This document shows, in pieces, positions 1-18,048 of a DNA stretch of 64,000 bases. Position 1 is the first letter of the stretch. Every line of letters begins with the position of its first letter. Source of the DNA: Thiocystis violascens DSM 198. GTDB taxonomy: Bacteria; Pseudomonadota; Gammaproteobacteria; Chromatiales; Chromatiaceae. Location of the stretch: assembly GCF_000227745.2 (NCBI RefSeq), contig NC_018012.1:186001-250000 (forward strand), written 5' to 3'. The position numbers were made by a program, and so were the translations under genes. The notes under the pieces were generated by a model. The model ran no database searches. It was not told the origin of the DNA and saw only the letters and a program-made list of their open reading frames with translations.

Positions 1-511
1 TCGAGTTGGAAAACTCCGCGTTCAGGGTGGCGCCTGGCAGATCCAGATCGTCGTTCGAGTTGTCCACGTCGAGACTCACCCGATCCTCGCCGAACATGGC
101 CTGGACGGTGTTCGCCACCTTCAGCACATTCTGAAACTTGAGCGTGAAGACCTCGGTCTTTTCCTCGCGAAAGACGGTGATGTCCCGGAAGTACTCTTCC
201 GTGGTCATCACCAGATAGACCCCGGTCTTGTCGTTGAAGCGGTACCAGAGACCCGCCACCCGGGCGATGCTGTCGATCGCCTCGCGCACCGTGAGCGCGC
301 GCAAAAAGAGGGTGAAGCGCCGCCCTCCGGCCTCCCGCGTCGCCACGATGTTGACGCCGGTCTGCTCGGCGATGACGCGGATCGCGTCCTGCACGCTGGC
401 ATCGCTGAACTCGATCTCGCGCAGCGGCATGGTCACGTCGCTCGCCGCGGAGTGCGCCGGAGCGACCGCGCACAGGCTCAGACAGGCAATGAAAAAAAGC
501 AGATGTCTCAT
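1..511 (-). CDS. Secretin (GspD/PilQ/MshL-like), N-terminal part only
   Basis: The gene starts at an ATG at 511-509 and runs off the left edge, so only about 170 N-terminal residues are visible. Residues 1-22 form a signal peptide (MRHLLFFIACLSLCAVAPAHS). Next comes an STN/secretin N0-like segment with the typical wording QDAIRVIAEQTGVNIV, and then VFTLKFQNVLKVANTVQ, as at the start of an N1 domain. Secretins form the outer-membrane ring through which type IV pili or type II secretion pseudopili pass. It is the last visible gene of the minus-strand assembly operon and is separated from the PilP-like gene by 314 bases holding a hairpin repeat. The STN-type beginning fits MshL/PilQ-like secretins; the exact subfamily cannot be decided without the pore domain. 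Confidence 0.85.
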   Translation of the reverse strand, partial: MRHLLFFIACLSLCAVAPAHSAASDVTMPLREIEFSDASVQDAIRVIAEQTGVNIVATREAGGRRFTLFLRALTVREAIDSIARVAGLWYRFNDKTGVYLVMTTEEYFRDITVFREEKTEVFTLKFQNVLKVANTVQAMFGEDRVSLDVDNSNDDLDLPGATLNAEFSNS

Positions 512-607
512 GGATTCCGGTTGTCCTGAACCGCGCCCCGCGCGGTATTGTTTGTTGGATTGGCTCGGCCAACGGCCGCCTCCGCGACCCTCGGAGCGGG
601 GCACCGT

Positions 608-664
608 CATTCAGTGAAGCCGTTCGTGGTTCGAGGGCCTCACCACGAACGGCTTCACTGAATG
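608..664. repeat. Perfect 22-bp-stem hairpin, copy 1 of a dispersed repeat family
   Basis: Arms 608-629 and 643-664 are perfect reverse complements (22 bp) around a 13-base loop. The core TGAAGCCGTTCGTGG / CCACGAACGGCTTCA recurs at 10558, 10715, 13780 and 42546. It fills most of the gap between the secretin and the PilP-like gene and could act as an mRNA-stabilising or attenuating stem inside the operon; no T-tract follows on the minus strand. Confidence 0.9.
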
Positions 665-788
665 GCAGTGTCGGAGCGGGCGCGGTTTCGCGGTAGCGAT
701 AAACCGCCAACCCTGATCCTTCGGGATTTCTGAGGGATGCCTCACAGATGTTCCGATCATGGATGACGCCCCCTAAGCGATCTCCCCA

Positions 789-809
789 TTGCCCCTTGCC
801 CCTTGCCCC
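789..809. repeat. Heptamer tandem repeat TTGCCCC x3 (plus degenerate copies)
   Basis: Three exact TTGCCCC units, followed by a degenerate continuation up to the stop codon of the PilP-like gene. This is the complement of the GGGGCAA arrays at 7875 and 42370. Confidence 0.85.
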
Positions 810-825
810 TTGCTCCCTGCCCCTC

Positions 826-1284
826 TCACCGAACAAGAATGACCTGCCGCATGGAGCCGACCTCGACCTCGATCTGCATCCGGTCGATGCGCTTGACCCG
901 GATCACCGCGTTCGGAGAGGCCACGTTGATACCGATGGTGTCGCCCTCGCGCACCACATGCGTGCCCACCCCCTGCACCTCCAGCAGCGCCGCCTTGTTG
1001 CCGTTCTGGAGCATCACCATGCCCTTCAGCTTCATCTTGGGCGCCGGGGCGTTGCCCTCGGCATTCTGGAAGCCTACCTTGGCCTCGCTGTCGCTGAAGC
1101 GCTTGAGGATGGGCGCCGTCAGATCGAAGGGATTGCGCGCGTCGCCGCGATAACCGGGCCGGTCGGCCGTCTGCGCCCGGACACCGCTCCACTGGGGCGC
1201 GGCCAGCAGGACCGCCAGGATCGCCGCCGCGGACGGCAGAACGCGCGCGCGGCGGCGCGCGCGCTGGACCTCATGAAGCTGCAT
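826..1284 (-). CDS. PilP/GspC-like periplasmic alignment protein
   Basis: 152 aa, predicted as a membrane-anchored periplasmic protein that would link the inner-membrane platform to the secretin. An N-terminal hydrophobic helix lies at about residues 15-33, followed by DARNPFDL, the short 'NPFD' type motif common to PilP/GspC homology-region proteins, then a small beta domain ending in IDRMQIEVEVGSMRQVILVR. I place the start at the ATG at 1284-1282 preceded by GGAG; the open frame continues upstream, but there it overlaps gspF in another frame and reads as low-complexity shadow. Its position between gspF and the secretin matches MSHA (mshK) and T2SS logic. Sequence similarity is weak by eye, so the assignment rests on architecture plus position. 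Confidence 0.75.
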   Translation of the reverse strand: MQLHEVQRARRRARVLPSAAAILAVLLAAPQWSGVRAQTADRPGYRGDARNPFDLTAPILKRFSDSEAKVGFQNAEGNAPAPKMKLKGMVMLQNGNKAALLEVQGVGTHVVREGDTIGINVASPNAVIRVKRIDRMQIEVEVGSMRQVILVR

Positions 1285-1304
1285 GCGAACGTTTAACTCC
1301 TGCA

Positions 1305-2522
1305 CTATTTCGTCGAGACCTTCAGCGCCGCCTGGAAGAAGGCCAGATACACCGTCCCCACCATGCCGCCCACGATCAGAATCATCACCGGCTCGACCCA
1401 GGCCGCCATCACCTTGACGCGCGCCTGCAAGTCCTTGCGGTAGTAATCGGCCAGCGACTGCATCACCGCCTCCAGCTCGCCGCTGCGCTCGCCGATGGCG
1501 GCCATGTGCCGCACCAGCGGCGGCATCACCTTCGCCCGCAGCGCGATCGACAGCGGCTGCCCGCCCAGGATGCGCTCGCCGGCCTGCTCGAAGGCATCGG
1601 CAAAGGCTTGATTGCCGATCACCCCGGCGGCGATCGAGAGGCTCTGCAACAGCGTGATGCCGCTGCGCAACTGCATCGCCAGCATCGAGGCCGCCTGACC
1701 CAGCGACGCCGAGCGCAGGGTGCCGCCCACCACCGGGATCTTCAGCATCAGACCGTCGATGACCCGCTTGCCGCCCTTGGTCGTGTAGGACGCCAGCGCC
1801 GCGAAGATGAAAAGCCCCACGCCGCCGCCGAAGATCGCGCCCCAATCCTGGAACCAGCCCGCCAGATCCATCAGGAACTGCGTCACCGGCGGCAGTTCCA
1901 CCCCGCGCGCGCCGAGAAACACCGCGAAGCGCGGGATGACCCAGCCGACCAGCGCCGCCGACACCCCCACCGCCACCAGGAACACCAGGCTCGGATAGGT
2001 CAGCGCCGTCATGAGCTGACGCTTGATGTCCACCCGCCGCTCGATGTCGTCGGCCAGACGCTCCAGGATGTCGTCGATCTCGCCGCTCTTTTCCCCGGCC
2101 TCGATCAGCTTGGACACCATCGGCGGAAACACCTGCTTCTCCGCCGCCAGCGCGCGCGACAGGCTGCCGCCGTCCTCGATCAGGTCGCGCATCCGCCCGA
2201 GCGCCTTGCGCAACTGGAATTTCACCGCCATCTCGCGGTTCGCCTCCAGCGCCTGCACCACCGTATGTCCGGCGCGCAGCATCAGCGCGAGCTGGCGGAA
2301 CAGAAACACCAGATCGCCCTGGCTGGTGCTCAGATAGCGCTTGGGCGCGAAGCGGCTGACCCCGCTCTCGTCGCGCCCGGCGGCCTGCGGATCGCGGATC
2401 GAGAGCGCGAAGATCTTGGCCTCGCGCAGTTGCAGCGCCGCCGTGCGCTCGTCTGCGGCCTCGATGTGTCCGACCCGCTCGGCGCCGCTGGCATCCAGCG
2501 CCAGATATTCGAAGACCGGCAT
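1305..2522 (-). CDS. Type II secretion/type IV pilus platform protein GspF/PilC family
   Basis: 405 aa, the usual family length. It begins MPVFEYLALDASG, the standard GspF opening, and has two T2SSF domains: the first with GGSLSRALAAEKQVFPPM near residues 120-135, the second with GGQPLSIALRAKVMPPLV near 315-335. Three membrane helices are visible (about 172-198, 222-245 and 375-398). The protein is the polytopic inner-membrane platform that couples the cytoplasmic ATPase to pseudopilin or pilin extrusion. It starts one base after the gspE stop, so the two are translationally coupled. Confidence 0.95.
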   Translation of the reverse strand: MPVFEYLALDASGAERVGHIEAADERTAALQLREAKIFALSIRDPQAAGRDESGVSRFAPKRYLSTSQGDLVFLFRQLALMLRAGHTVVQALEANREMAVKFQLRKALGRMRDLIEDGGSLSRALAAEKQVFPPMVSKLIEAGEKSGEIDDILERLADDIERRVDIKRQLMTALTYPSLVFLVAVGVSAALVGWVIPRFAVFLGARGVELPPVTQFLMDLAGWFQDWGAIFGGGVGLFIFAALASYTTKGGKRVIDGLMLKIPVVGGTLRSASLGQAASMLAMQLRSGITLLQSLSIAAGVIGNQAFADAFEQAGERILGGQPLSIALRAKVMPPLVRHMAAIGERSGELEAVMQSLADYYRKDLQARVKVMAAWVEPVMILIVGGMVGTVYLAFFQAALKVSTK

Positions 2523-2523
2523 C

Positions 2524-4149
2524 TCAACGCGCGTCCGGCGGCACCAGCCGCTCCACTTCGGCGAGCGTTACCGCGCCTTCCAGCACCTTGGAGCACCCGT
2601 CCTGCCAGAGGGTGTAGTAGCGGTCCGTCGCCGTCTGGCGGATCAGATCCTCGCGCGCGCCGGTCGCGATCAGCTCGCCGAGCGGGCGGTCCACCCACAG
2701 CGCCTCGTAGAGCCCGACCCGTCCCGCGAAGCCGGTGCCCAGACAGGCCGGACAGCCGACCGGGCGATAGAGCGTCAGCTCCTCCGGCAGCGTGCCGCCG
2801 AGCCGCCGGCGCTCGTCGGCGTCCGGCGTATAGGGCTCCCGGCACTGCTGGCACAGCCGGCGCACCAGCCGCTGCGCCATCACCCCGATCAGGGTCGCGC
2901 CGATCAGATAGTAGGGCACCCCGATGTCGGCCAGGCGCGTCACCGCCCCGACCGCGTCGTTGGTGTGCAGGGTCGCCAGCACCAGATGCCCGGTCATGGC
3001 CGCCTTCATCGCCGTTTCGGCGGTCTCCAGGTCGCGCACCTCGCCGACCAGGATCACGTCCGGGTCATGACGCAGAAAGGAGCGCAGCGCCAGCGCGAAA
3101 TCCACCTTGGTGCTCACCTGCACCTGCGAGATCCCCGCCACCACCTGCTCGATGGGATCCTCCACCGTCAGGATGTTGAGATCGTCCGCGTCCAGCTCGC
3201 GCAGCGCCGCGTAGAGCGTGGTCGACTTGCCGCTGCCGGTGGGGCCGGTCACCAGAATGATGCCGTAGGGCCGGTTGATCGCCTCGCGGAAGGGACCGAG
3301 GATCGGCGGCGGCATGCCGAGCCGCTCCAGATTCAGCCCGGTGGTGCCCGCCCCGAGCAGACGCATGGTCACCCGCTCGCCCCAGCGGGTCGGCGCGGTG
3401 GCCACGCGCACATCCATTGGCGGGGTGTCCCACTGCGACAGGCGATAGCTCATGGAGCCGTCCTGGGGCAGGCGCTGTTCGCCGATGTCCAGGTTGGCGA
3501 GCACCTTGATACGGGTCACCACCGCCTCGCCCTCTTGCAGGGTCAGCGGGCGCGGATACTCCAGCAGATGGCCGTCGACGCGCTCGCGCACCCGCACCGC
3601 GTACTGCTCGGGCTCGAAGTGCAGATCGGTCGCGCGGCGCAGATAGGCATCCTTCATCAGGGTGTCGAGCAGCCCGGTGGCGTCTTGCCCGCTCGCCTCC
3701 GGCGTCGCCAGCAGCGGCCCGCCGCCGCGCTGGCGGCGCAGCGCCGCGCGCAGCGCCTCCGGCGCGGCCAGCGCCGGGCGCAGACGCTCGCCGGTGGCGC
3801 GCTCGGCGATCTCCGGACTCAGCCGATCATCCGGGTCGCCGAGCGCCAGCAGCAATTCCCCGTCGCGGCGCACCGGCAGCATGGGGCGGCGTTGCAGGAC
3901 GTTGTCCGGCAGCTTTTCCAGGAGTTCCGGCACCGCCACCAGATCCTTCGGCAGCAGAAAGATCATGCCGCGCTGGCGTGCCAGTGCCTGATAAAGCGCC
4001 GCCTCCGGGAAACGCCCGGCGCGCGTCACCGCCTCCAGCAGCCGGATACGCTCGCGCCGTGCTTGCAGGCGCAGGGTCGGCAGGGTCTCGGGATCGACCA
4101 GTCCGGCGGCGATGCCGGCCTCGATCAGGGACGCCTCGGTGACCGCCAT
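2524..4149 (-). CDS. GspE/PilB-type assembly ATPase
   Basis: 541 aa from the ATG at 4149-4147, which overlaps the stop of the upstream pilT-like gene (ATGA); the longer frame upstream is inside that gene. An N-terminal MshEN/GspII_E-like domain (about 1-150) is followed by the secretion ATPase core with Walker A GPTGSGKSTT near residue 303, Asp box/Walker B VEDPIE and ILVGEVRDLETAETA, and a His box TGHLVLATLHTND. A C-terminal zinc-binding element has two CxxC pairs (LCQQC, GCPAC). The enzyme would hydrolyse ATP to power assembly of the pilus or pseudopilus on GspF. Confidence 0.95.
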   Translation of the reverse strand: MAVTEASLIEAGIAAGLVDPETLPTLRLQARRERIRLLEAVTRAGRFPEAALYQALARQRGMIFLLPKDLVAVPELLEKLPDNVLQRRPMLPVRRDGELLLALGDPDDRLSPEIAERATGERLRPALAAPEALRAALRRQRGGGPLLATPEASGQDATGLLDTLMKDAYLRRATDLHFEPEQYAVRVRERVDGHLLEYPRPLTLQEGEAVVTRIKVLANLDIGEQRLPQDGSMSYRLSQWDTPPMDVRVATAPTRWGERVTMRLLGAGTTGLNLERLGMPPPILGPFREAINRPYGIILVTGPTGSGKSTTLYAALRELDADDLNILTVEDPIEQVVAGISQVQVSTKVDFALALRSFLRHDPDVILVGEVRDLETAETAMKAAMTGHLVLATLHTNDAVGAVTRLADIGVPYYLIGATLIGVMAQRLVRRLCQQCREPYTPDADERRRLGGTLPEELTLYRPVGCPACLGTGFAGRVGLYEALWVDRPLGELIATGAREDLIRQTATDRYYTLWQDGCSKVLEGAVTLAEVERLVPPDAR

Positions 4150-5345
4150 CAGGGCTGTCTCCGCGGGCGCGGCAGCAGTCCGCCGCGCTTGGCCGCGGTC
4201 TGCTCGGCCAGCGCCGCCTGCTCGACCAGCCGGGCGGCGCGTTCGATCTGACGCTCCAGGGTCTGCGCGTCCTTGCAATGCACCAGCGCCTCGGCGCGAC
4301 TGAGGATGCCCCGATGGACCAGTTCCGCGAGCGACTGATCCATGGTGCGCATGCCCTCGGCCGCGCTGCTCTCGATCAGCGAGAAGAGCTGGCGCGTCTT
4401 GCCCTGCTCGATCAGATTGGCCGCGGCCGGGTTGACCATCAGGATCTCCACCGCCGCCACCCGTCCGCGTCCGCTGGAGCGTCGCAGCAGTCGCTGGGCG
4501 ATCACCGCCTTCAACGACATGCCGATGCGGTGGCGCGCCACGTCCTGCTCGCCGCCGGGAAAACTCCCGACCAGCCGCTCGACGCAGCCCACCGCCTCGG
4601 CGGTGTGCAGGGTCGAGAACACCAGATGTCCGGTCTCCGCCGCCGTGATGGCCGCGCGCATGGTGTCCAGGTCGCGCATCTCGCCGATCATGATGACGTC
4701 CGGATCCTCGCGTAGCGACGCCTGCACCGCCGCCGCGAAACTCGCCACGTCCCGCCCCAGCTCGCGGTGATGCACCACGCAGCGTTTGGGACGATGGACG
4801 AACTCCACCGGATCCTCCACCGTCAGGATGTGCGCGGCGCGGGTCTCGTTGATCCGATCCAGCAGGGTCGCGAGCGTGGTCGACTTGCCGCTGCCGGTCG
4901 CCCCGGTCACCAGTACCAGCCCGGCGTTCAGCCGCCCCACCTCTTCCAGTTGTGGGGGCAGGCCCAGCCGGTCGAGCGACAGCAGCCCCTGGTCCAGATG
5001 ACGGGCGGCGAGCGCCAGGTGACCCTGCTCGCGGAAGAGATTGAGCCGGAACCGCTCGCCGTCCGGCGCGCCATAGCCCAGATCCAGATGGCCGGTCTGC
5101 GCCAGATCCTCGCGCTGGCGCTCGGTGGCGAGGCGCGCCGCCAGCCGCTCCATGGCGTCGTGCCCGACCAGTGCCTCGCCCAGTTCGGGCGGCGCCGGCG
5201 CCAGTTCGCCGAGAATCCGGTAGCTCGGGCGGCTGCCGACGGTCAGATGCAGGTCCGAGGCCCCGAGCGACACGCCCGCGGCGAGCAGCGCATCGAGATT
5301 CAGCCCCACGGGCTCCAGTGCCGTCACAGACATGGCGCCGCTCAC
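4149..5345 (-). CDS. PilT/PilU-type retraction ATPase
   Basis: 398 aa. The sequence GASDLHLTVGSRPSYRI near residue 30 is the PilT N-domain signature; Walker A is ATGSGKSTT near residue 150, Walker B is VIMIGEMRDLDTM, and the His box is TGHLVFSTLHTA. PilT proteins drive depolymerisation of type IV pili. PilT is not a normal component of T2SS or of MSHA operons, so its presence between the PilO-like gene and the GspE gene is notable. It overlaps gspE by ATGA and its start overlaps the end of the PilO-like gene. An alternative start is at the internal Met5 (MSVTALEP). Confidence 0.92.
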   Translation of the reverse strand: MSGAMSVTALEPVGLNLDALLAAGVSLGASDLHLTVGSRPSYRILGELAPAPPELGEALVGHDAMERLAARLATERQREDLAQTGHLDLGYGAPDGERFRLNLFREQGHLALAARHLDQGLLSLDRLGLPPQLEEVGRLNAGLVLVTGATGSGKSTTLATLLDRINETRAAHILTVEDPVEFVHRPKRCVVHHRELGRDVASFAAAVQASLREDPDVIMIGEMRDLDTMRAAITAAETGHLVFSTLHTAEAVGCVERLVGSFPGGEQDVARHRIGMSLKAVIAQRLLRRSSGRGRVAAVEILMVNPAAANLIEQGKTRQLFSLIESSAAEGMRTMDQSLAELVHRGILSRAEALVHCKDAQTLERQIERAARLVEQAALAEQTAAKRGGLLPRPRRQP

Positions 5346-5956
5346 AGGGTCACGTCGATGCTGATGTTCAGCATGCTCTGCTGGGCCTTGGGTTCGCCCT
5401 CGGTGCGCAGTTCCACGCCCAGCGGCGCGCTCGCATAGTTCAGGTTGCCCAGTCCCCGCAGAAAGGCGAGCAGACCCCAGTAATCGCCCGCGCCCTGCAC
5501 CCGCATATAGGGCCGCCCGGATTCCTGATCCCTGAGCGGGGTCAAACCCCGGCGCCCGTCGCTCTCGTCGCCCTGCTTGAGCAGTTGGATGCCGCTCGAC
5601 TCCGCCAGGGTGTTGAGTTCCAGCAGCAGCAGCTGATGCGCGCCGGGGGTGTCGCCCGGCGTGAAGCGTCCGGCGAGTTCCCCGTAACGGGCTTCGAGCG
5701 CCTCCTTCTGCTTGACGATCTTGGGGAGCTTGCCTTGCAGCGCGGCCGCGGTGCCGACATCGACCTGGGGCACCTGAGCGCGCTTCTCGATGCGGTCGGT
5801 ACGCCGCGCGACCAGCGCGGTGGACTTGGTCAGCTCCCGGTTCGCGAAGGGGAAGATCAGCAGCCCGTAGAGCCCCACCGCGATGGCGGTGCCGATCGCC
5901 AGCCAGCGCAGTCGGTCCGCCGGGGGGAGTGCCTGCCAGGTCTGTTTCAGCTTCAT
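5342..5956 (-). CDS. PilO/GspM/MshJ-like assembly protein
   Basis: 204 aa: a short cytoplasmic N-terminus, one membrane helix (about 19-36), a charged coiled-coil stretch (about 40-95) and a small ferredoxin-like periplasmic domain ending LNISIDVTL. This layout is that of PilO/GspM/MshJ, which dimerises with PilN in the inner-membrane alignment subcomplex. The phrase YMRVQGAGDYWGLLAFLRGLGNL is the usual PilO-type element. It overlaps the PilM/N gene upstream and pilT downstream by four bases each, so all are in one tightly coupled operon. Confidence 0.85.
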   Translation of the reverse strand: MKLKQTWQALPPADRLRWLAIGTAIAVGLYGLLIFPFANRELTKSTALVARRTDRIEKRAQVPQVDVGTAAALQGKLPKIVKQKEALEARYGELAGRFTPGDTPGAHQLLLLELNTLAESSGIQLLKQGDESDGRRGLTPLRDQESGRPYMRVQGAGDYWGLLAFLRGLGNLNYASAPLGVELRTEGEPKAQQSMLNISIDVTL

Positions 5957-7812
5957 GTCCCGCTCTCCCCGAAGGCCAGCAACACCTCGATCTGGTAGCC
6001 GGAGATGGCGCGCGGCCCTGGCCCCGCGACGATGCGCGAGTTGCGCACCGTTCCCTTGAGTTCCCCCAGGGTATTGTTCAGATTGGTGACGAAGAGCTGC
6101 GCGGCGGTGCTGTTCAGCGCCCAGCCCCGCAGTTGCACCAGCGCCCCCGGAGTCGGCGGCAGCTTGATTTCATGCAGATACAGCTCGTCGCCGCAGGCGG
6201 CGGCGATCTGTTCCAGCACCCTGGGCAGCCGTTCGCGCCGCGCCGCCAGCCGCTCCATCGCGGTCACCTTGCCGGTCAGGTCGGCGATCACGCGCTCGGC
6301 GGCGGCGATCTCGGCCTGTAGCCGGTTGGCCTCGGCCAGGATCTCGTTGGCGGTCCGCTTCTGCTCCAGTTGCTCCTCGTAGAGCGCATCCAGCCGCTCC
6401 AGCTCGCGGTCGTTGTCCCAAATCGCGACGCGCATGCGCACATCGTTGGCCAGCACCGCCATCAGCACCGCCGCCGCCGCCGCGTAGGGCAGCAGATCGC
6501 GGCGCTTCCACAGCGGCGCGCGCGCCGGCTGCGCCGCCACCGAGGCCAGCGCCGCGCGCGGCACCGTGCCCAGCACATGACGCGCCACCGCCAGGATCTC
6601 GTCGGCGATCGCATCGCGCGGCGGGGTTTCCGGCGCGGCCGCCGGCCGGGCGCTGGCCGTGTCCGCCGCGCGCGCGCGCCAGAACCGCCGGGCGCCCTTG
6701 TCCAGCGACACGGGCGCGGATTCGGGTTCGGACAGCGCCGCGTCGTCGCCGGCCCGCACCACCTCCAGGCCCAGCAGGTCGGCGAGCGCCTCGGATAGTT
6801 CCGCCGCCTGATCCTCCGGGGCGCGCAGATGGATCTGGCGGATCTCCGGGGTCAGTTCCTCGCGGCACAGCCCGGCCGCGTCCTCCGGCGGCAGGCGACC
6901 GTTACGGGTATTGCCCACGCGCAGACTGCGTAGCGCGCCGGGGCGTCCGCGCATCACCGCGAACTGTTCCGGGTGTACCTCCAGATAGAGCGTCTCCGCC
7001 CCCGGCGACGCCTCCAGGGTGACGAAGCCGGCGCCCAGGATGGCATAGGCCGTGTCCAGGAAGATCCCCTGGCGCTGACATGCCTTGACCCAGGCGCGGC
7101 GCAGACTCTCCGGCACCGCGAGCGCCAGCCAGGAGAAGCCCCGCGCGTCCTCCTCGTCGTCGTCGGAATCCTCTTCCAGCGGACGGCTCTGACCCACCCA
7201 GCCGCACACCAGTTGATCGTCGGCGCGGAACAATTGATCGCGCAGTTCCACGCACTCCTCGACCTGATCGCGGGTGACCAGTTCGGCCTCGACCGCCACG
7301 TCGCCGAACCGCGCCTTGACGCGCGGTCCCGCCTCTTTGGGGAGCGCCTCCGCATCCAGCGCCTGCAGCGCCTGCCGCTCGGCGACGGCGGAGCGCTGTT
7401 CCGGGGTCAGATAACCGCGCCCCATCAGCGGCGCGCCGATGGTCCAGAACAGATTCTGCTCGCTGAAGAGACTCTCCAGCTCCCAGCGCACCAGTTCGTG
7501 CATCTGCTCGCGCGGGCGCGGATGTTCCGGGTCCACCGGCAGATCCAGCAGGGCCGTGACCGCCGAGGCGCTCATCAGCACAGCCTTTTTCGGCAGTCGC
7601 CGCACCCCGCGCGCGCGAAGCCCCTCCAGCGCCTCCGCCACGGCGACCTGCGGATCGATGGCGAGCGACAGCGCGCGGGCACGAATGGTCGCGCCGGTCA
7701 CCCCGGTCTGCACCAGGGCCGCCGTCAGGCGATAGCCATCGCTGTGCAGCACCAGCACCCGGCCCGGCTTGCCGATCTGGATGGTGTTGAGTTGGGAGAG
7801 GGGGTTTTTCAT
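5953..7812 (-). CDS. PilM-PilN fusion (GspL/MshI-like)
   Basis: 619 aa. The N-terminal 340 or so residues look like an actin-like PilM/GspL cytoplasmic domain (opening GKPGRVLVLHSDGYRLTAAL). A membrane helix lies near residues 438-457 and is followed by a long coiled coil (about 460-530) and a PilN domain (LRGWALNSTAAQLFVTNLNN). In canonical T4P these are two proteins; a single chain is the GspL/MshI arrangement. An acidic patch EEDSDDDEED sits in the cytoplasmic part. It is the first gene of the tightly overlapping block, and its upstream gap holds tandem heptamer repeats rather than an obvious promoter. Confidence 0.85.
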   Translation of the reverse strand: MKNPLSQLNTIQIGKPGRVLVLHSDGYRLTAALVQTGVTGATIRARALSLAIDPQVAVAEALEGLRARGVRRLPKKAVLMSASAVTALLDLPVDPEHPRPREQMHELVRWELESLFSEQNLFWTIGAPLMGRGYLTPEQRSAVAERQALQALDAEALPKEAGPRVKARFGDVAVEAELVTRDQVEECVELRDQLFRADDQLVCGWVGQSRPLEEDSDDDEEDARGFSWLALAVPESLRRAWVKACQRQGIFLDTAYAILGAGFVTLEASPGAETLYLEVHPEQFAVMRGRPGALRSLRVGNTRNGRLPPEDAAGLCREELTPEIRQIHLRAPEDQAAELSEALADLLGLEVVRAGDDAALSEPESAPVSLDKGARRFWRARAADTASARPAAAPETPPRDAIADEILAVARHVLGTVPRAALASVAAQPARAPLWKRRDLLPYAAAAAVLMAVLANDVRMRVAIWDNDRELERLDALYEEQLEQKRTANEILAEANRLQAEIAAAERVIADLTGKVTAMERLAARRERLPRVLEQIAAACGDELYLHEIKLPPTPGALVQLRGWALNSTAAQLFVTNLNNTLGELKGTVRNSRIVAGPGPRAISGYQIEVLLAFGESGT

Positions 7813-7815
7813 TAT

Positions 7816-7871
7816 TCAGTTATCAGTTATCAGTTATCAGTTATCAGTTATCAGTTATCAGTTGTCGGTTG
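7816..7871. repeat. Heptamer tandem repeat TCAGTTA (6 exact + 2 degenerate)
   Basis: Six exact TCAGTTA units (7816-7857) followed by TCAGTTG and TCGGTTG. It lies immediately upstream of the PilM/N start codon. A similar TTATCAG heptamer type is known from filamentous cyanobacteria (general knowledge). Confidence 0.95.
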
Positions 7872-7874
7872 TCA

Positions 7875-7902
7875 GGGGCAAGGGGCAAGGGGCAAGGGGC
7901 AA
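7875..7902. repeat. Heptamer tandem repeat GGGGCAA x4
   Basis: Four exact units that directly follow the TCAGTTA array; same unit as the 13-copy array at 42370-42460. Confidence 0.95.
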
Positions 7903-8228
7903 GGCGTAGGATGGGTAGAGTGACCGCGCGCCGACCTGGCGCCAGCCCGCCGAGGCTGGCGCCAGCCCGCCGAGGGTGGCCGGTCACGAAACCCATCGAC
8001 CGCGAGCACCAAGCAAGCCGTCGGAGCCCGCTGGCGGGCGATACGGGCGAGGCGTCCGGTCGGGGTGCGCCGGTTGGCTGCCTTCCAAAGCCCCGCTCGC
8101 CAGCGGTGAGATGCCTGTCCTGAGCGAAGCCGAAGCGGGCGAGGGGCGAAGGGCGAGCCATCGCCGCATCGGTTGTGATTGCCGCGTTTCCAAGGGGTAA
8201 GGGTTGAGTTGTCATGGCGCGATTTGGC
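7903..8228. repeat. Intergenic repeat-rich stretch between pilin-like and PilM/N genes
   Basis: No gene is supported here. It holds a GTAGGATGGGTAGAG motif near 7905 and an inverted partner (GAAACCCATC) near 7989, flanking two copies of a GCCAGCCCGCCGAGG unit (7942 and 7961). This looks like a dispersed palindromic repeat. The six-frame reading frames through it are short and of low complexity. Confidence 0.6.
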
Positions 8229-9779
8229 TTAGTTGATGGGCCAAGACCCGGGTAGGACTAGCCGGACCGTGCCCGGAATGAGCGTGAATCGGCGCCATGT
8301 AGTCATAACAACTGGTACCGTCGAAGGGGATATACTGCAATCAGTATTATCAATACGGTAAAATCTATAGGCCATTTCACCGAGATGAAGATACGTATCT
8401 GTGTCGTATGGATCCGTGTCGCCCCCAAATGTGAAGGTATGCACCTGCCTATTTCCGTTTGAGTTGAGTTCTAATTGATTGCCACTACCGCTTGATGGCA
8501 TCTGTTTGATTTCGCCGTTTTCACGATATGCGACACGCAGGCACAGGTTATTATTTGCAGTGCCGGTGCCGAGAATGTAGGCGGCCGGCATCAAAGACCA
8601 GAATTGATTACTCAAAGAGCAATCTGCTTGATCTACAATAGAGTAATCACCATTAGCTTGGAAGCCAACAATGTCCCCGTTTGTTGAGTTGCGACAGACG
8701 TTTGCCGGTGCTACCCAAACGCCGTTAGCATCACCTTCGCAGTCGGCTGGAGTGCGTCTCTCGGGTAAATTGCAAACACCGCCAGGCCTGATTCGCCATT
8801 CCCATGTTCCAGTACATTGGGCTTCATCTTTTGCGGGAGGATCACATGACCATCCTTGATTGATCTGCGTTACCCATTGGGTGGTTATATCTTGACCATA
8901 ATTATTGCAGTCATTAGATGTATCCATGCCATCATCCCAATAGTTTATTACACGGCAAGCGCCACCATAACGTAGGCAAGTCGCCGCATCGACAAAGCCG
9001 CCATCGCTGCATGAAACCGATGAACCATAGCTGCCGAAATCGACGGTAATCCCTTGGCCGTTGTCATCAGAAGGTGTGCCGTCCCAATCAGTAATTAAGA
9101 CACAATATTCATTATTATAAACAAGGGTCTCTGAACCCGCAGGCGGGTAATCCTCTTCATAAAGCAAATCTCCACCTGGCTTGCCATCCATGCCATAACT
9201 CTGAATGATTAAGTCATAAGGGGTTGATGGTGGTACAAGCGGATCAAACCGCCATCCAAAGTTATCCGTACCATCGTCGTTGCCCCATCCATCCCGATAA
9301 ACCGGGGCTCCATCCTCATCCGCAGTTGCGACCAAATAAGGGCCGTTCCAGCCTGCCCGCAGACCTGTGTCAACATTGATTGTGCTTTCGGGTAGCTCTA
9401 ACCAGTTGCTGGGAGTGGCGGGATAATAAGTTTCGCAATCGGTCTGAGTCCGAACCTCGCGATGACCCTGGCAGTATTCCCGTGTCAGCAGTTCGGTCAG
9501 GTTGCGCGGCAACCTCCCCATATCCGCAACAAACCCCCGAATCTCCGGCTGTCCGTTGAGCGTACGCGAGGTGTCACCGATGATCGCCTTGCGGATCATC
9601 TCCAGACGGTTCTTCGTATCCTGATACCGCGCCTGCCCCAGATCGTCCCCCACCTGCGACAGCGCCATGAAGCCGACCACGGACATGAGCGCGACCACCA
9701 CCAGCAGTTCCAGCAGGGTCATGCCCCGCTGGGGGCGGCGGGCGGGCGGGCGGTCCATCGCGGTCGGCCGGGCGTTCAT
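8229..9779 (-). CDS. Large Cys-rich type IV pilin-like protein
   Basis: 516 aa, far longer than ordinary pilins or pseudopilins (130-200 aa). Residues 1-19 form a basic leader ending at the prepilin peptidase site G/MTLLELLVVVALM, followed by the hydrophobic N-helix; the new N-terminus would be Met with Glu at +5. The ectodomain has about 20 cysteines and glycine/aspartate/tryptophan-rich segments, for example VCNLPERRTPADCEGDANG near residue 340. The ectodomain DNA (8229-9440) is much more AT-rich than the leader and flanking genes. The start codon overlaps the stop of the upstream secreted-protein gene (ATGA). It could be a tip adhesin, a major subunit with a surface domain, or a sensor; the sequence does not decide. 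Confidence 0.85.
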   Translation of the reverse strand: MNARPTAMDRPPARRPQRGMTLLELLVVVALMSVVGFMALSQVGDDLGQARYQDTKNRLEMIRKAIIGDTSRTLNGQPEIRGFVADMGRLPRNLTELLTREYCQGHREVRTQTDCETYYPATPSNWLELPESTINVDTGLRAGWNGPYLVATADEDGAPVYRDGWGNDDGTDNFGWRFDPLVPPSTPYDLIIQSYGMDGKPGGDLLYEEDYPPAGSETLVYNNEYCVLITDWDGTPSDDNGQGITVDFGSYGSSVSCSDGGFVDAATCLRYGGACRVINYWDDGMDTSNDCNNYGQDITTQWVTQINQGWSCDPPAKDEAQCTGTWEWRIRPGGVCNLPERRTPADCEGDANGVWVAPANVCRNSTNGDIVGFQANGDYSIVDQADCSLSNQFWSLMPAAYILGTGTANNNLCLRVAYRENGEIKQMPSSGSGNQLELNSNGNRQVHTFTFGGDTDPYDTDTYLHLGEMAYRFYRIDNTDCSISPSTVPVVMTTWRRFTLIPGTVRLVLPGSWPIN

Positions 9780-10318
9780 GGCTGGACCATCGCCAGGGGC
9801 GCGCGCTCGTAGCCGACGATCAGGATCGCCGGGCCTTTCGAGTAGTTGTAGACATGCCAGCCGGTGAAGAGGGTCGCCGTGCCCTCGCCGAGCCGCTTGA
9901 TGCCCTCGACCTGGGTGTCCTCGACATAGACCGGCAGGATGTGACCGCCCGGCGTCTCGACGAACATGCGGTGCGAGACCTTGGGTTCGGGGTCGAGCGG
10001 GAAGAAGCTCAGCGCGGTGTAGAGATAGTCGGTGTCGCGCTTGCGCGGCTCCTGCTTGATGCGCGCGCCGAAGCGCACCGGCGAGGGCTTGAAGAAGGCG
10101 CTGGTGCCCTTTTTCTCCGGGCGCGCGCCCTTGATCAGTTGGTCGATGTCGATGTCCTGGTATTGGGGTTCTGCCTGCGGCTGTGCGACGGTCGGCGGCT
10201 GATCCGGCGCCGCCGGCGCGGTCTGCGCCGCCGCGCCGCCCGGCGTCATCAGCGGCAGGCCCAGGGCCAGGCTCAGGGCGCCGATGCGCGCGGCCAGTGT
10301 CTTGATGCGGTTCTTCAT
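9776..10318 (-). CDS. Secreted protein of unknown function coupled to the pilin gene
   Basis: 180 aa from the ATG at 10318-10316; the upstream in-frame extension is repeat DNA. Residues 1-31 form a signal peptide (LALGLPLMTPGGAAAQ region), followed by a Pro/Gln-rich linker and a compact domain with SPVRFGARIKQEPRKRD and VETPGGHILPVYVEDTQ. I recognise no family. It is translationally coupled (ATGA) to the large pilin-like gene and lies upstream of the PilM/N-to-secretin block, so an accessory role in pilus assembly or export is a reasonable inference only. Confidence 0.75.
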   Translation of the reverse strand: MKNRIKTLAARIGALSLALGLPLMTPGGAAAQTAPAAPDQPPTVAQPQAEPQYQDIDIDQLIKGARPEKKGTSAFFKPSPVRFGARIKQEPRKRDTDYLYTALSFFPLDPEPKVSHRMFVETPGGHILPVYVEDTQVEGIKRLGEGTATLFTGWHVYNYSKGPAILIVGYERAPLAMVQP

Positions 10319-10507: not shown

Positions 10508-10557
10508 GAGCGTGAGCCAACCTGAATCCGTTCGTGGTGAGGCACTCGAACCTCACT

Positions 10558-10600
10558 TGAAGCCGTTCGTGGTGAGGTTCTCGAACCATGAACGGCTTCA
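10558..10600. repeat. CCGTTCGTGG hairpin family, copy 2
   Basis: A 43-base imperfect hairpin. Its reverse complement is identical over all 43 bases to the copy at 42546-42588, which shows the family has spread recently. Confidence 0.9.
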
Positions 10601-10714
10601 CGCGCAGAGGCCCGGATTTCCCGTCCGTCCTTCGAGAGCCTCAGGACGAACGGGAAATCCTCCGAGCGTTCGACCGCCTGACCGCCTGCTCGCTAAACTT
10701 CCTAACACCCCACC

Positions 10715-10757
10715 TGAAGCCATTCGTGGCAAGGCACTCGAACCATGAACGGATTCA
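10715..10757. repeat. CCGTTCGTGG hairpin family, copy 3
   Basis: A diverged 43-base copy in the same orientation as copy 2, followed by CGCGCCGAGGCCCGG, which also flanks the copy at 42546 in reverse. Confidence 0.85.
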
Positions 10758-10782
10758 CGCGCCGAGGCCCGGATTTGCGCTC

Positions 10783-10806
10783 GTTCCCACGCTGGAGCGT
10801 GGGAGC
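10783..10806. repeat. 24-bp palindrome (REP-like), copy 2
   Basis: GTTCCCACGCTGGAGCGTGGGAGC, one base different from copy 1 at 10484. Confidence 0.85.
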
Positions 10807-10850: not shown

Positions 10851-11831
10851 TTATTCCAGGCAGAGGACGATGTCGTCATGGTCGTCGTCGGGGTCGTTTC
10901 CTTCGTCCCCACTGTTGCCGCGTTCGCAGGGGTCGACGCCGTTGACGCCGCCGTAACGACCATTTTGCCCCATGCTGACGAGGCGTGGTCGCAGACCAGC
11001 CGGGGTTTCTGCTAGGTCGAAAACGAAATAGGGTCCGCCTATGCGTCCGAGGTAATAGCCGTTGATTTTCTTGTTAATGGCGACTTCGCGCGGGTAAGCG
11101 TTGTGTGTGCTGCGCCAGTCCAGCAGCCAACGGTCATATTTCGATCCGTCGTCAAATTTATGGAAAACATCGAAATTCGGGTCGGCTTTCACCGGGTCGG
11201 TGTCGCCAAAGGGGTCGGCGATCCCAATAGCTTCCGCGACCAGTTTGGCTGTGCCGCCATCTTCGATCGGGCTGCCGATGCCGTTGGTCTTTAGGTCATC
11301 GGAAAGGTCGACCAGGCTTTGCGAATCGCGCCGGAGATAGGGACCGCGCCAGCCACGGCCACGGCTAGCGTCCCAACTTTGTTCTTCGCTACCAGTACAG
11401 CCAAGCCATACCGGCCATTGAGGCGCAGGTGGCGGTAATGGGTTCGTGATGATCGGGCACTCGAACAACTGCCAAAAATTGGCTGGTGAATAGAACCATG
11501 CAGCGTTTTCCGCGGGAGTCCTGCTCGCATGATCGGGAATCGTTGATTCATTCACACCACCCGAATAGGTCGTGGAGCCAACCGTTAGCGCCAACCCAAA
11601 CGGCCCCTGCTTCGGGTAATACCCCGTATCCTGCTTGAACTGCCGGATCGCCTTGGCGATCTCCTGCATCTCGACGCGGGCGAGCTGTTCCTTGTTGTCT
11701 TCGATCACGCCGGTGAGGTTGAGCGCGCCGATGCCGGCGACGGCGGCCAGGATGGCGACGGTCACCAGCAGTTCCAGCAGGGTCATGCCGCGCTGGGTGT
11801 CGGGCGGGTGTCGAAGTGGGGCGTGGATCAT
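10851..11831 (-). CDS. Large type IV pilin-like protein (326 aa)
   Basis: Starts at the ATG at 11831-11829 (MIHAPLRHP). The 15-residue leader ends at the prepilin peptidase site G/MTLLELLVTVAILAAVAG, followed by a GspG-like helix (EDNKEQLARVEMQEIAKAIR) and YYPKQG, typical of major pseudopilins. The ectodomain is about 290 residues, two to three times the GspG length, with WRGPYLRRDSQS, a GspG-type motif, in the middle, and an acidic Asp-rich tail (GNDPDDDHDD). Together this suggests a GspG/PilA-type fold with insertions. It precedes a repeat-filled gap and then the secreted protein and third pilin. Confidence 0.85.
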   Translation of the reverse strand: MIHAPLRHPPDTQRGMTLLELLVTVAILAAVAGIGALNLTGVIEDNKEQLARVEMQEIAKAIRQFKQDTGYYPKQGPFGLALTVGSTTYSGGVNESTIPDHASRTPAENAAWFYSPANFWQLFECPIITNPLPPPAPQWPVWLGCTGSEEQSWDASRGRGWRGPYLRRDSQSLVDLSDDLKTNGIGSPIEDGGTAKLVAEAIGIADPFGDTDPVKADPNFDVFHKFDDGSKYDRWLLDWRSTHNAYPREVAINKKINGYYLGRIGGPYFVFDLAETPAGLRPRLVSMGQNGRYGGVNGVDPCERGNSGDEGNDPDDDHDDIVLCLE

Positions 11832-12141
11832 GCGTGTCCCGAGTTGGATGGCGGTGGCGAACCAGCGATGGCCTGGCGAGGCTCGGGACCGGGACAGGCG
11901 GATGGGATGCGTGTCGTGCTCGGTTCCGCGAGGCGTGGCGCGTCCGCTCCTCCCGCTCTCGCCCCAGTCTCTCAATGGGTTGGCGCCGGATGCGCAAGGG
12001 TCTGCGGAGGCACGGCCAGTCCTGGATGTCACTGTGGTTCGACGGGGACCAGCCGGCCCCCGTCGGGAATTCAAATGGCCGCCTCCCTGCGGCCCCGCGT
12101 CCCTGCGGCCTAGGACTCAAGCGAGCCCAGCTAGGCTCCGG
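11832..12141. other. Intergenic region between two pilin-like genes
   Basis: 310 bases in which I see no gene, clear promoter or repeat; only a short GC-rich inverted stretch around 12080-12110 that could form a weak stem. Confidence 0.5.
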
Positions 12142-13191
12142 TTAGATGGTATTGCGCGAGCCATCCCATTCGCCCAGCTCTTCTTCCTTGGTGTCGCCCG
12201 CGCCGTCGATGACGGTGACGAGGTTGACCTGATCGGCAGCTTCCCAGGTAGGCAAGGTCGCGCCAATAGCGCCATCAGAGACAGCACCACTACCAGCATC
12301 AACAGTTGCTTCGGTGGTGGTTCCGACCTGGAAGAGGGCAATGAACCGGTTGTACTCCGCGCCGGAGACATGCCGGTAAACGGGCACCGATGTCATGCTG
12401 CCGAGCGTGCCGTTCTTGAACAGGGTCGATGATGGGCCAATGCCGACGGCCATCATGATGGGCTTGCCAGCAGGAACAGTGCCGCTGCCGGACAAGGCGC
12501 CGGACGAGCCCAGGATGCGCTCGTAGTTGCCTGTCCAGATGGCGACGTCGAGACCCGTCGTGCCATATGCGGTCGCGCTGAAGTCGCTGCCGTCATTCGG
12601 GAAGTTATAGCTAAAGCCGCATCCATTTGCGTCCGGACTCAGGTAGATGTTGCCGGGAACGACGGCGTTGGTCCGCGCCAGGATGAGCGCTTCCGGAGTC
12701 GCGCAGGTCTTTCCGCTGCTGTCTTCAGGCGTAAAGCTGGAGTTCTTGGCGACGTAGCGCAGACCCTCGATACCGCCCGCAAACATGCCCGCTGCCGCAG
12801 AATTGGGCAGTGCTGTGATGGTGAAATCGGCCTTATCGAAGGCGACCATGTCGTACCACTCGGCGCCAGTGATCACATCATCTGTGGCGCCGTTGGTGAG
12901 CGTCGGCACCGTAGTAACTTGCAGCAGTGAATCCCAATCGCTCGGCAGCACATTGCGGTTCAAGACGCGATAGGTCGCGATGCCCTTATTCAACTCATCC
13001 ATCATGGCGACATGCGCGGCGGCGGAGGCACGGGCGTCCGTGTCTTGCAGGGCGATGGTGGCGGTACCGGCGATGGCGGCCAGGATGGCGACCACGACCA
13101 GCAGTTCGAGCAGGGTGAAACCCTTTTGGCCGCGTTTGGCGCGACGGCTCTGGAGGCGGGTGGCGAGTTTGGCAATACGGGTGAATTTCAT
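12142..13191 (-). CDS. Large type IV pilin-like protein (349 aa)
   Basis: Starts at the ATG at 13191-13189 (MKFTRIAKL). A basic leader of 24 residues ends at the processing site G/FTLLELLVVVAILAAIAG with the standard Phe+1 and Glu+5. The ectodomain is Ala/Gly/Ser/Thr-rich, about 320 residues, with two Cys (TCATPEAL, NGCGFSYNF) that could form the pilin disulfide, and MMAVGIGPSSTLF. It is the first gene of the minus-strand pilus locus. The Phe+1 makes it the best candidate for a polymerising subunit among the three. Function inferred from the N-terminus only. Confidence 0.85.
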   Translation of the reverse strand: MKFTRIAKLATRLQSRRAKRGQKGFTLLELLVVVAILAAIAGTATIALQDTDARASAAAHVAMMDELNKGIATYRVLNRNVLPSDWDSLLQVTTVPTLTNGATDDVITGAEWYDMVAFDKADFTITALPNSAAAGMFAGGIEGLRYVAKNSSFTPEDSSGKTCATPEALILARTNAVVPGNIYLSPDANGCGFSYNFPNDGSDFSATAYGTTGLDVAIWTGNYERILGSSGALSGSGTVPAGKPIMMAVGIGPSSTLFKNGTLGSMTSVPVYRHVSGAEYNRFIALFQVGTTTEATVDAGSGAVSDGAIGATLPTWEAADQVNLVTVIDGAGDTKEEELGEWDGSRNTI

Positions 13192-13447
13192 AACATTCAG
13201 TCTCGATTGAATGAGCTCCGTCCCCCCGCCGCGGGGCGCCCGGATGCCGGGGATTGTGTCAATGGTTTGAATGCCGATCGGTGCGCGCTTCCCGCGCCGC
13301 ACCGTCGCGCTCGACACGGCCCCACGCCGTCGCCGAAACCGGCCTTCCGCCGTGGCCCCGCCCATCCCTGGAGCGGTGCCGTCCAGGAGCCTGTGGATCA
13401 GGCCCCGTCAGGCGCGCCTGGCCGGGCTCCCCCGACCGTTGCTGGCG

Positions 13448-13642
13448 CTATGCCTCGTCCGTGAACCTGTGGTTCACGATGTAGCGGTATTGCTTACCGC
13501 AGTGAACGATGACTTCTTTCTGTCCCCGCTTGAGCAGACGCACTTCGATGCGCAGTTCCCCATAGCCGTCGTGGTCGGTGAGGTCGGCGTAGAGGTCGCT
13601 CACCTTGGCGAGAACCTCTTCGTGAGTGTTGGTCTGCTGCAC
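13448..13642 (-). CDS. Small hypothetical protein (64 aa)
   Basis: The frame opens with GTG at 13642-13640 and encodes an acidic/basic mixed peptide with VRLLKRGQKEVIVHCGKQYR near the middle. Codon use is like that of neighbouring real genes (GC-rich third positions), which supports coding. It has no signal peptide, membrane helix or family I recognise. It lies just upstream of the first pilin gene. Confidence 0.55.
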   Translation of the reverse strand: MQQTNTHEEVLAKVSDLYADLTDHDGYGELRIEVRLLKRGQKEVIVHCGKQYRYIVNHRFTDEA

Positions 13643-14812: not shown

Positions 14813-15777
14813 TCACACCGGCAGCCCCGCAGCCAGTAACTGGCCATGCAGTTCCTGGGTCCGCCCCGGTGCCAACTGGCCGTGCAGAAAGGAGCGAATC
14901 TCCGCCGGGCGGACGTTGAGTAGATCGGCCAACGCCCGGGTGTTGTAGCCGTAGCGGGTCAGGGTCGCCTCCAGGGCATCAATGTCGGCCGCCAGGACGG
15001 CTTCGATGACCTCCAAGGTCACCGGCTTCTGCCCGACCTGATAGGCCGCCTCCAGCGCGAGCGTCAGGTACTGCTCGATCTGCAACGGGGTGGACAGTGC
15101 TGCGGCCAGGCGCTCGCGGGCCTCCGCGGTCAGCAGATCGGCCGCCGTTGCGGGGGCGCATTGCTCCAGCAACCAGTCCAGATAGGCCAACTCCTGCCCT
15201 TTGATCCCGTCCAGCCAGAACAGGGTGGTCCGGGCGCCGATCTCCTCCAGGGCTGGCCGGCGCAGATCGTCCTGAGCTTGGGGTGACCCACCAGGACCAC
15301 GGACAGGGTGCCGCCGTTGTTCTGGACCAGTTCGATCAGGCGCTTCAGCCCGACCAGGGTCTTGGGGTGCAGGTCGTGCGCCTCATCGACGAACAGGGCG
15401 ACCGGCTTCTTGCGCTTGGCGATGACCTCGATGAGCTTGCGCTCGCGCTTCTCCGGCTGGGTGGGGACCTTGAAGTCCTTCTCGGTCAACAGGTCGTAGA
15501 ACAGGGCCAGCATCAGGGTGCCAAGGTTGATCCGATGTTTGTCCACCGCGAGCGACTGGGAGACCAGGATCTCGCGCTCGTCCTTGAGGGCCTCGGTCAG
15601 CCGGTGCAGCGTGGTGGTCTTGCCGCAGCCGACCAGTCCGACCAGGGCCAGGAGTTGACCGCCATGGATGGCGATCTTGATATCGTCGAAGACCCGGCGT
15701 TGCTGGGCGGTTTCGAAATAGCCGGCGCGCGGCAGTCCGCGGGTTAGCCCAAAGTGCTTCATCACCTCGCTCTGCAT
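14813..15777 (-). pseudogene. TniB/ExeA-like transposition ATPase, frameshifted
   Basis: Read from the ATG at 15777, the protein has Walker A LVGLVGCGKTTT near residue 44 and Walker B VALFVDEAHDL near 125, typical of the AAA_22/GspA-ExeA ATPases that select targets for TniA/Mu-type transposases. After VVLVGHPKLR (about 15270) the frame breaks: adding one base restores DLRRPALEEIGARTTLFW and continues without stop into the second frame, which ends at 14813 (LAAGLPV). The lesion is a one-base loss in AGGACGATC. Either the ATPase is inactivated or this is a sequencing error; no slippery heptamer is seen. Intact length would be about 320 aa. Confidence 0.85.
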
Positions 15778-15782
15778 GCCGG

Positions 15783-17420: not shown

Positions 17421-17445
17421 GGACGCACCACTCCCGGGCGACGCC

Positions 17446-18048
17446 CTAACGGCCCTGCGCGGCCGGGCCCGGGGTGCCGATCGGCACCCCGCGGTGGCGC
17501 AGGTAGTCGTAGAGGGTACTTTTGGCGATGCCAAGCTGGGCGGCGATCTCGCGCACCGATAGGCGCCGCTCGCGGTAGAGGGTCTCGGCGGCGCAGGCGG
17601 TTTTCTCAGCCTCGGGCGGTAGGCCCTTGGGGCGCCCGCCCAGGCGACCGCGAGCACGCGCAGCGACCAACCCGGCCTGGGTGCGTTCGCGGATCAGATC
17701 CTTTTCAAATTCAGCCAGCGCGGCGAACAAATTGAACACCAACCGACCCTGGGAGGTGGTGGTGTCCAGTGGATCGTTGAGGCTCTTGAGCCCGACCTGC
17801 TGTTCCAGCAGTACGCCAGCCAGTTCGACCAAGTGACGCAGGGAACGCCCGAGACGGTCGAGTTTCCAGATCACCAGCACGTCGCCCGGGCGCAGCTCGC
17901 CCAGCAGGGTATCGAGGACCGGACGCGGGACCTTGGCGCCGCTGACGACCTCCTGGTAGACCTTCGCGCACCCGGCGCGGCGCAAGGCGTCGACCTGCAG
18001 GTCCAGGCTCTGGTCTTTGGTGCTGACACGGGCATAGCCGATGTCCAT
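17446..18048 (-). CDS. Serine recombinase/resolvase (TniR-like)
   Basis: 200 aa. The catalytic Ser is in YARVSTKDQSLDLQ near residue 9, the conserved VIWKLDRLGRSL follows near 60-72, and EKDLIRERTQAGL leads into the long E helix. The C-terminus is a Hin-type helix-turn-helix (LSVREIAAQLGIAKSTLYDYL). It would resolve cointegrates at a res site, probably in the 344-base gap to its right. First gene of the transposon operon. Confidence 0.95.
   Translation of the reverse strand: MDIGYARVSTKDQSLDLQVDALRRAGCAKVYQEVVSGAKVPRPVLDTLLGELRPGDVLVIWKLDRLGRSLRHLVELAGVLLEQQVGLKSLNDPLDTTTSQGRLVFNLFAALAEFEKDLIRERTQAGLVAARARGRLGGRPKGLPPEAEKTACAAETLYRERRLSVREIAAQLGIAKSTLYDYLRHRGVPIGTPGPAAQGR

Follow-up and report, generated by a model that had tools for sequence, protein, structure and literature searches.

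Denise 2019 recognises type IVa pili (T4aP), type IVb pili (T4bP), the mannose-sensitive haemagglutinin (MSH or MSHA) system, the type II secretion system (T2SS), ComM, Tad and archaeal types, with 884 systems left over as 'generic' (PMC6668835). Pelicic 2023 lists six bacterial type IV filaments and expects more (PMC10191384). The MSHA pilus, for which the name type IVe pilus (T4eP) has been proposed, relies in Vibrio cholerae on a PilT common to the competence pilus (PMC9815625). Here we describe a filament operon in Thiocystis violascens DSM 198, located within C1:186001-250000 of the complete 5.02 Mb genome (64,000 bp, hereafter the window). It probably encodes a type IV filament machine that is complete and self-contained and that belongs to a lineage separate from those of T4aP, MSHA and T2SS; a retractable surface pilus is the expected product. 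The sequences identify a PilM/N-O-P alignment complex together with three prepilins, a secretin, an assembly ATPase and a platform protein; most branches also have a PilT-family ATPase that descended with the machine.

Organization of the operon

The preliminary description of this DNA proposed a run of PilM/N, PilO, PilT, GspE, GspF, PilP and secretin genes, and all seven are present in that order on the minus strand. They are preceded by prepilin 1, prepilin 2, a secreted protein and prepilin 3. The operon extends past position 10318, where prepilins 1 and 2 and a small conserved open reading frame (ORF) occupy 10851-13642. In window coordinates, its features are as follows.

13448..13642, minus strand: small conserved ORF, 64 aa; family hidden Markov model (HMM) 83 bits; 5' of prepilin 1 in most syntenic loci
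12142..13191, minus strand: prepilin 1, about 349 aa, GFTLLELLV N-terminus; N_methyl PF07963, TIGR02532; syntenic homologues
10851..11831, minus strand: prepilin 2, GspG-like, about 326 aa; N_methyl, weak GspG; one homologue matches T2SSG PF08334
9776..10318, minus strand: secreted or periplasmic protein x225, about 180 aa; syntenic homologues
8229..9779, minus strand: prepilin 3, 516 aa, large C-terminal domain; N_methyl, TIGR02532; syntenic homologues
5953..7812, minus strand: PilM/PilN fusion, 619 aa; predicted PilM fold with MshEN-like insert, then PilN-like part
5342..5956, minus strand: PilO-like membrane protein, 204 aa; family HMM 233 bits, conserved position, no Pfam match
4149..5345, minus strand: PilT-family ATPase, start GTG 5345 or ATG 5333; TIGR01420 388 bits
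2524..4149, minus strand: GspE/PilB-like assembly ATPase; T2SSE 385 bits, MshEN 43 bits, zinc tetracysteine motif CxxC...CxxC
1305..2522, minus strand: GspF/PilC-like platform protein; T2SSF match
826..1284, minus strand: PilP-like periplasmic protein, about 152 aa; family HMM and position
1..511, minus strand: secretin, N-terminal part in window; whole gene C1:184331-186610, 759 aa; Secretin PF00263

The tight packing described earlier from PilM/N to GspF is borne out: the genes overlap or almost abut, with 4-bp overlaps at both the PilM/N-PilO and PilO-PilT junctions, a PilT stop overlapped by the GspE ATG (4149), and 1 bp between the GspE end and the GspF start. The GspE start was corrected to 4149 (541 aa) instead of 4278. 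The secretin gene is split by the left edge of the window. Prepilin 1 is likely the first pilin gene of the operon. Pfam and NCBIfam searches gave no match for x225, and the copy of the small ORF in locus L042 matched no Pfam family.

A second, canonical set of pilus genes, for which a check had been suggested, exists elsewhere in the genome: PilB, PilC and PilD at C1:249334-253235 (PilB 843 bits, above cut-off), PilMNOPQ at 3135373-3140621 (PilQ 513 bits, passing its cut-off) and PilT/PilU at 3627394-3629589. T2SS genes are dispersed (GspE 3291866, GspF 3105006, GspD 3152811). With canonical T4aP and T2SS genes encoded elsewhere, the operon is therefore a third, additional filament system.

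Distribution

Among 37 relatives the PilM/N gene was found in the own genome only, and among 398 genomes of the phylum in one more; a two-sequence profile searched against 369 genomes of the class gave strong matches in the own genome and four others. A single-sequence PilM/N genome scan gave no match, and plasmids yielded none either. Scanning 84,980 species genomes with a PilM motif gave 59 loci, with hosts in Chromatiaceae, Methylophaga, Methylomonas, Methylobacter, Methylotenera, Oceanospirillaceae, Colwellia, Moritella, alphaproteobacterial metagenome-assembled genomes, Nitrospinota, Planctomycetota and Verrucomicrobiota. Syntenic operons thus occur in Gamma-, Beta- and Alphaproteobacteria, Nitrospinota, Planctomycetota and Verrucomicrobiota. 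Profile annotation showed an identical gene order in nearly all of the 59 loci, and since this order is kept in about 60 other genomes, the arrangement is not a matter of chance. The patchy spread across phyla points to horizontal transfer. A weak PilM match (G590) belongs to a different filament operon, and GspE matches on Manganitrophus and Skermanella plasmids are other type IV pilus or T2SS loci.

A lineage apart from T4aP, MSHA and T2SS

Reference T4aP, MSHA (secretins passing MshL) and T2SS loci were taken from the host genomes themselves, labelled by NCBIfam cut-offs or gene neighbourhood, and included in the trees. In the GspF tree, 50 operon members lie on one side of a single branch (Shimodaira-Hasegawa-like approximate likelihood ratio support 100), with T4aP, MSHA and T2SS each separate. 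The GspE tree places 27 members in one group (support 100), joined by one related ATPase that comes from a second locus in Methylobacter (L124); PilB, GspE, MshE and the remaining ATPases of planctomycete, verrucomicrobial and Nitrospina hosts lie outside it. The operon secretins form one group (support 92) apart from the T4aP, T2SS and MSHA secretins of the same hosts. HMM scores are cleanly separated: 621-935 for members versus 392-497 for other ATPases with GspE, 474-672 versus 296-388 with PilT, and 404-642 versus 243-287 with GspF. On these trees and scores, GspE, GspF, the secretin and PilT are each a lineage apart from T4aP, T2SS and MSHA. The suggestion that the operon represents a subclass of its own is upheld by these separate groups, whereas its description as an MSHA/T2SS-like hybrid is not, as no part groups with either system.

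GspE and GspF match their families but fall below the GspE, PilB and GspF equivalog cut-offs. For T2SS the scores against cut-offs are 460/630 (GspE), 298/424 (GspF) and 168/351 bits (GspD); for T4aP, 438/676 (PilB TIGR02538) and 126/284 (PilQ TIGR02515). The window secretin scores 120 bits on MshL (TIGR02519, cut-off 250), whereas true MshL proteins of the same hosts score 251-283. The T4bP PilN-family secretin model (TIGR02520) gives 36 versus 288 bits, Tad TadA (TIGR03819) 39 versus 373, and ComGA and ComGB 220/300 and 90/240.

As in the type IV filament superfamily, a single cluster combines class III prepilins with an assembly ATPase and a platform protein. With T4aP it shares a PilM-fold protein, PilN-, PilO- and PilP-like proteins (PilN weak; PilO and PilP by family and position) forming the alignment complex, an assembly ATPase, a platform protein, a secretin and a PilT-family ATPase. 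It differs from T4aP in being a single operon in which PilM and PilN are usually fused and PilM contains an MshEN-like module, in its large prepilins, in a PilT that is sister to all sampled canonical PilT/PilU, in a secretin that often bears a TraK domain, and in the separate groups of its GspE, GspF and secretin. MSHA is likewise a one-locus gammaproteobacterial pilus with an MshEN-type assembly ATPase and no prepilin peptidase in the locus, but the present operon mostly has its own PilT, stands apart in three trees, has a secretin below the MshL cut-off and follows another gene order. The T2SS shares GspG/H-like prepilin N-termini, a GspE/GspF-like core and a secretin; here, however, PilT is present, PilM/N-O-P stand in place of GspL/M/C, the secretin falls below the GspD cut-off and the proteins form separate tree groups. 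The operon is most likely, on sequence grounds, a variant within the type IV filament superfamily, and most likely a dedicated retractable pilus.

Loci L053-L059 and L061 (Oceanospirillaceae, Oleiphilaceae and Colwellia) carry a second, shorter assembly ATPase (about 430-456 aa) after GspF, a long branch near T4aP PilB, and prepilins 2 and 3 have moved behind it. The Methylobacter marinus locus L124 (G773:C1:845949-850684) is a second, divergent relative of the operon, whose ATPase joins the GspE group and whose secretin has 788 aa.

A co-inherited PilT

The operon PilT exceeds the PilT/PilU family cut-off (TIGR01420, 388 versus 319 bits). PilT is present in 28 loci, and the idea that it is a genuine, co-inherited part of the operon holds: the 28 sequences fall in a single clade (100/100), and every canonical PilT/PilU sampled, three solved PilT structures among them, lies opposite to it. 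It is missing from 25 loci with a visible PilO-GspE junction, 24 of which, from methylotrophs and Colwellia relatives, coincide exactly with a single GspF clade (support 100); the remaining one is a planctomycete contig (L074). Because PilT operons span all the phyla, fall in a single PilT clade and have main subgroups that match those of GspE, the simplest account, on unrooted trees, is that PilT would be an old, co-inherited operon member, acquired once and lost in one main event. The Walker A motif, Asp box, Walker B motif and His box are kept in all 28 operon PilTs. AIRNLIRE is altered in every one of them, being of the A[VA][AS][NH]LI type in nearly all and AAANLIEQ in the window.

In all four PilT-less hosts examined (L064, L068, L079 and L086) PilT/PilU is encoded elsewhere. 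That PilT lies outside MSHA operons, as had been stated, is correct for gene order but not in function, given that the V. cholerae MSHA pilus borrows a shared PilT (PMC9815625).

At C1:3150253-3152724 (L013) there is a second PilT/PilU-like ATPase pair with a GEIRxRET-type Walker B and degenerate AIRNLIRE motifs, adjoining T2SS gspD and gspL/M-like genes.

The PilM/N fusion and its MshEN-like module

PilM/N has no Pfam match and sequence searches with it were unsuccessful; hhalign with a six-sequence PilM profile detected neither canonical PilM nor GspL. The PilM part of the Thiohalocapsa orthologue (L045) was modelled by AlphaFold2 (AF2) with a predicted local distance difference test (pLDDT) score of 91, and Foldseek against the PDB returned PilM as the best match (E 6e-10), followed by FtsA and GspL. 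The N-terminal part of PilM/N is thus predicted to fold as PilM. Its C-terminal part may be PilN-like, with a weak likeness to the genome's own PilN (E 2e-4); this assignment is of low confidence. The 204-aa protein is taken as PilO-like chiefly from its family and its place in the operon.

In the PilM part, a helical insert follows the RWE helix and precedes the next strand. It contains two motifs resembling the c-di-GMP motif of MshEN, and profile comparison by hhalign aligned it with MshE N-termini (95.7%, E 9e-9). The MshEN rule calls for two RLGxx(L/V/I)(L/V/I)xxG...LxxxLxxQ motifs 5 residues apart (PMC5013675). The second motif of the insert is good in many members, and the spacer is longer than the rule allows. 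The operon GspE has an MshEN domain of its own (43 bits).

A TraK-type domain or a SEL1-repeat lipoprotein at the secretin

The tail of the window secretin matches DUF3438 (49 bits), TraK_C (30 bits) and TIGR03749 (67 bits), and the secretin is the only DUF3438 match in the T. violascens genome. Otherwise DUF3438 is the family of the TraK-like protein of conjugative elements. All 21 homologous secretin tails tested, each taken by itself, match DUF3438. The domain was predicted by AF2 (pLDDT 89) as mostly beta-strand with one long helix, and Foldseek found only two PDB matches at E<=0.001, 7spb and 7oko, both of the outer ring complex of the F-plasmid type IV secretion system (T4SS). The C-terminal domain of F-plasmid TraK has four strands and one helix (PMC8770708). 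Most of the operon secretins share with conjugative T4SS TraK/VirB9 (DUF3438, TIGR03749) the C-terminal domain's sequence and predicted fold; here, in contrast, the domain is fused to a type IV filament secretin, and the operon showed neither a TraB/VirB10 nor a TraV/VirB7 gene.

Besides the window, 27 non-duplicate loci have the TraK-type domain. A SEL1-repeat lipoprotein is encoded directly beside the secretin in 10 of the 19 loci without the domain, in two separate branches, and in none of the 27 with it (Fisher p 2e-5, uncorrected for kinship). Pilotins of the PilF type are likewise helical-repeat lipoproteins. Because of this and of the swap with the SEL1 lipoprotein, we read the TraK domain as a candidate substitute for a pilotin. 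In a close relative (L040, 1489-3453) the secretin tail looks out of frame at the expected TraK position, possibly a frameshift.

Proposed function and alternatives

The machine would work as follows. Prepilins would be matured by PilD, whose gene sits in the canonical pilBCD cluster at a distance of about 65 kb, and polymerised by GspE via GspF, the filament leaving through the secretin. The operon's own PilT would pull the filament back or help to initiate it, and the PilT-less branch would borrow the host's general PilT, as the V. cholerae MSHA pilus does. The TraK-type domain would do the pilotin's outer-membrane docking or a ring-stabilising job, and in two branches the neighbouring SEL1-repeat lipoprotein would replace it. 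Through their MshEN-type modules, GspE and the PilM-like protein may make assembly responsive to a cytoplasmic signal, for instance c-di-GMP. The expected product is a retractable surface pilus that serves attachment, not a pseudopilus that secretes protein.

Several points weigh against this interpretation. PilT is not indispensable, as the PilT-less branch keeps the rest of the operon, and the PilT from which retraction is deduced has an altered AIRNLIRE motif in every member. Members were gathered via a PilM motif, so the universality of PilM is built in. The trees compare T4aP, MSHA and T2SS, with T4bP, Com and Tad compared through family models only, and those of GspF, GspE and the secretin were built by quick search. 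The first-motif arginine, which stacks on guanine in MshE (PMC5013675), is missing in nearly all PilM inserts, so c-di-GMP binding by that module is uncertain. Finally, the GspG-like pilin N-termini are also compatible with a pseudopilus.

These N-termini, the T2SSG match of one homologue and a GspF whose top score is to TIGR02120, though under cut-off, would fit a T2SS-like secretion machine in which PilT recycles or pulls back a pseudopilus. We consider this unlikely: the operon is separate from T2SS in all trees, no GspC/I/J/K was identified in it, PilT is not known from T2SS, no secreted enzyme is linked, and Wzy_C-type ligases adjoining 12 loci suggest that the pilins are glycosylated and hence exposed. 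A divergent MSHA (T4eP) system is largely refuted and highly improbable; its single-locus organisation, the MshEN domain of its ATPase and the 120 bits of the secretin on MshL are outweighed by the unmatched MshL cut-off, which the true MshL proteins of the same hosts pass, by the separate GspF, GspE and secretin groups in hosts that carry MSHA additionally, and by another gene order with no MshA/MshN-type gene identified.

The most credible of the rivals, though still doubtful, is that the operon forms one branch of T4aP, taken as a broad and paraphyletic assemblage, without special status and already included as 'generic' or T4aP in genome surveys. PilM, N, O, P and PilT are as in T4aP, and Denise 2019 has T4aP polyphyletic, with the 884 generic systems unassigned (PMC6668835), among which this operon may be. 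However, the operon proteins group with neither T4aP PilB/PilC/PilQ/PilT nor the MSHA ATPase, platform and secretin, and GspE also stands apart from the remaining ATPases of planctomycete, verrucomicrobial and Nitrospina hosts; the single-locus synteny extends across phyla, and none of the T4aP loci examined showed a TraK-domain secretin or an MshEN-bearing PilM. A competence or DNA-handling pilus would account for a domain homologous to conjugation outer rings and for a dedicated PilT that could power uptake. We regard it as improbable, since no DNA-processing, ComEA/ComEC or conjugation gene recurs beside the operon, and deletion of traK from the F plasmid abolishes pili and leaves some DNA transfer, which ties the domain to pili rather than DNA (PMC8770708).

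It is possible, though we would put it at somewhat less than even chances, that the self-contained machine proposed here is one more bacterial subtype of type IV pilus, to be set beside T4aP, T4bP, Tad, Com and MSHA, marked by a co-inherited motor pair, a secretin-fused TraK replacing the pilotin and a PilM with an MshEN-type sensor module. We found no description of the operon, a DUF3438 secretin or a matching new subtype in the literature, which is weak evidence with preprints and most subscription papers outside the coverage. The TraK/DUF3438 tail and the MshEN-like module within PilM appear to be newly recognised here. The operon offers a defined, single-locus candidate filament in culturable aquatic bacteria (Methylophaga, Methylobacter, Methylotenera, Neptunomonas and Motiliproteus). 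Close branches with and without PilT make the contribution of a dedicated retraction motor testable, the exchange of TraK domain and lipoprotein does the same for secretin docking, and the domain is a building block common to filament and conjugation machines.

Neighbouring genes and other observations

Protein x225 is present in 24 loci, with PilT present too wherever the adjoining region is visible, and it is missing from every one of the 25 loci that lack PilT. A histidine kinase/LuxR-type regulator pair stands beside 13 loci, all without PilT. MoxR-DUF58 genes, tallied as recurrent neighbours, were judged to be unlinked cargo. Beside the operon of L041 (15500-19300) lies a long stretch of repetitive frames (SPSPS...), which may be an opposite-strand gene for a large repeat adhesin.

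In the window, a TniB/TniA/TniR-like set lies just 5' of the pilus operon (15130-18048, minus strand), consisting of an AAA_22 ATPase, a serine resolvase and a large protein whose Mu-transposase/HTH matches are weak; it is possibly a transposon linked to the operon's patchy distribution. Between prepilin 3 and PilM/N, 7813-7868 is a tandem heptamer, (TTATCAG)n. An interspersed repeat, CTTGAAGCCGTTCGTGGTGAGG.TCTCGAACC, occurs in the operon gaps at 10517-10787 and about 620-740, with like stretches in other intergenic regions of the genome.

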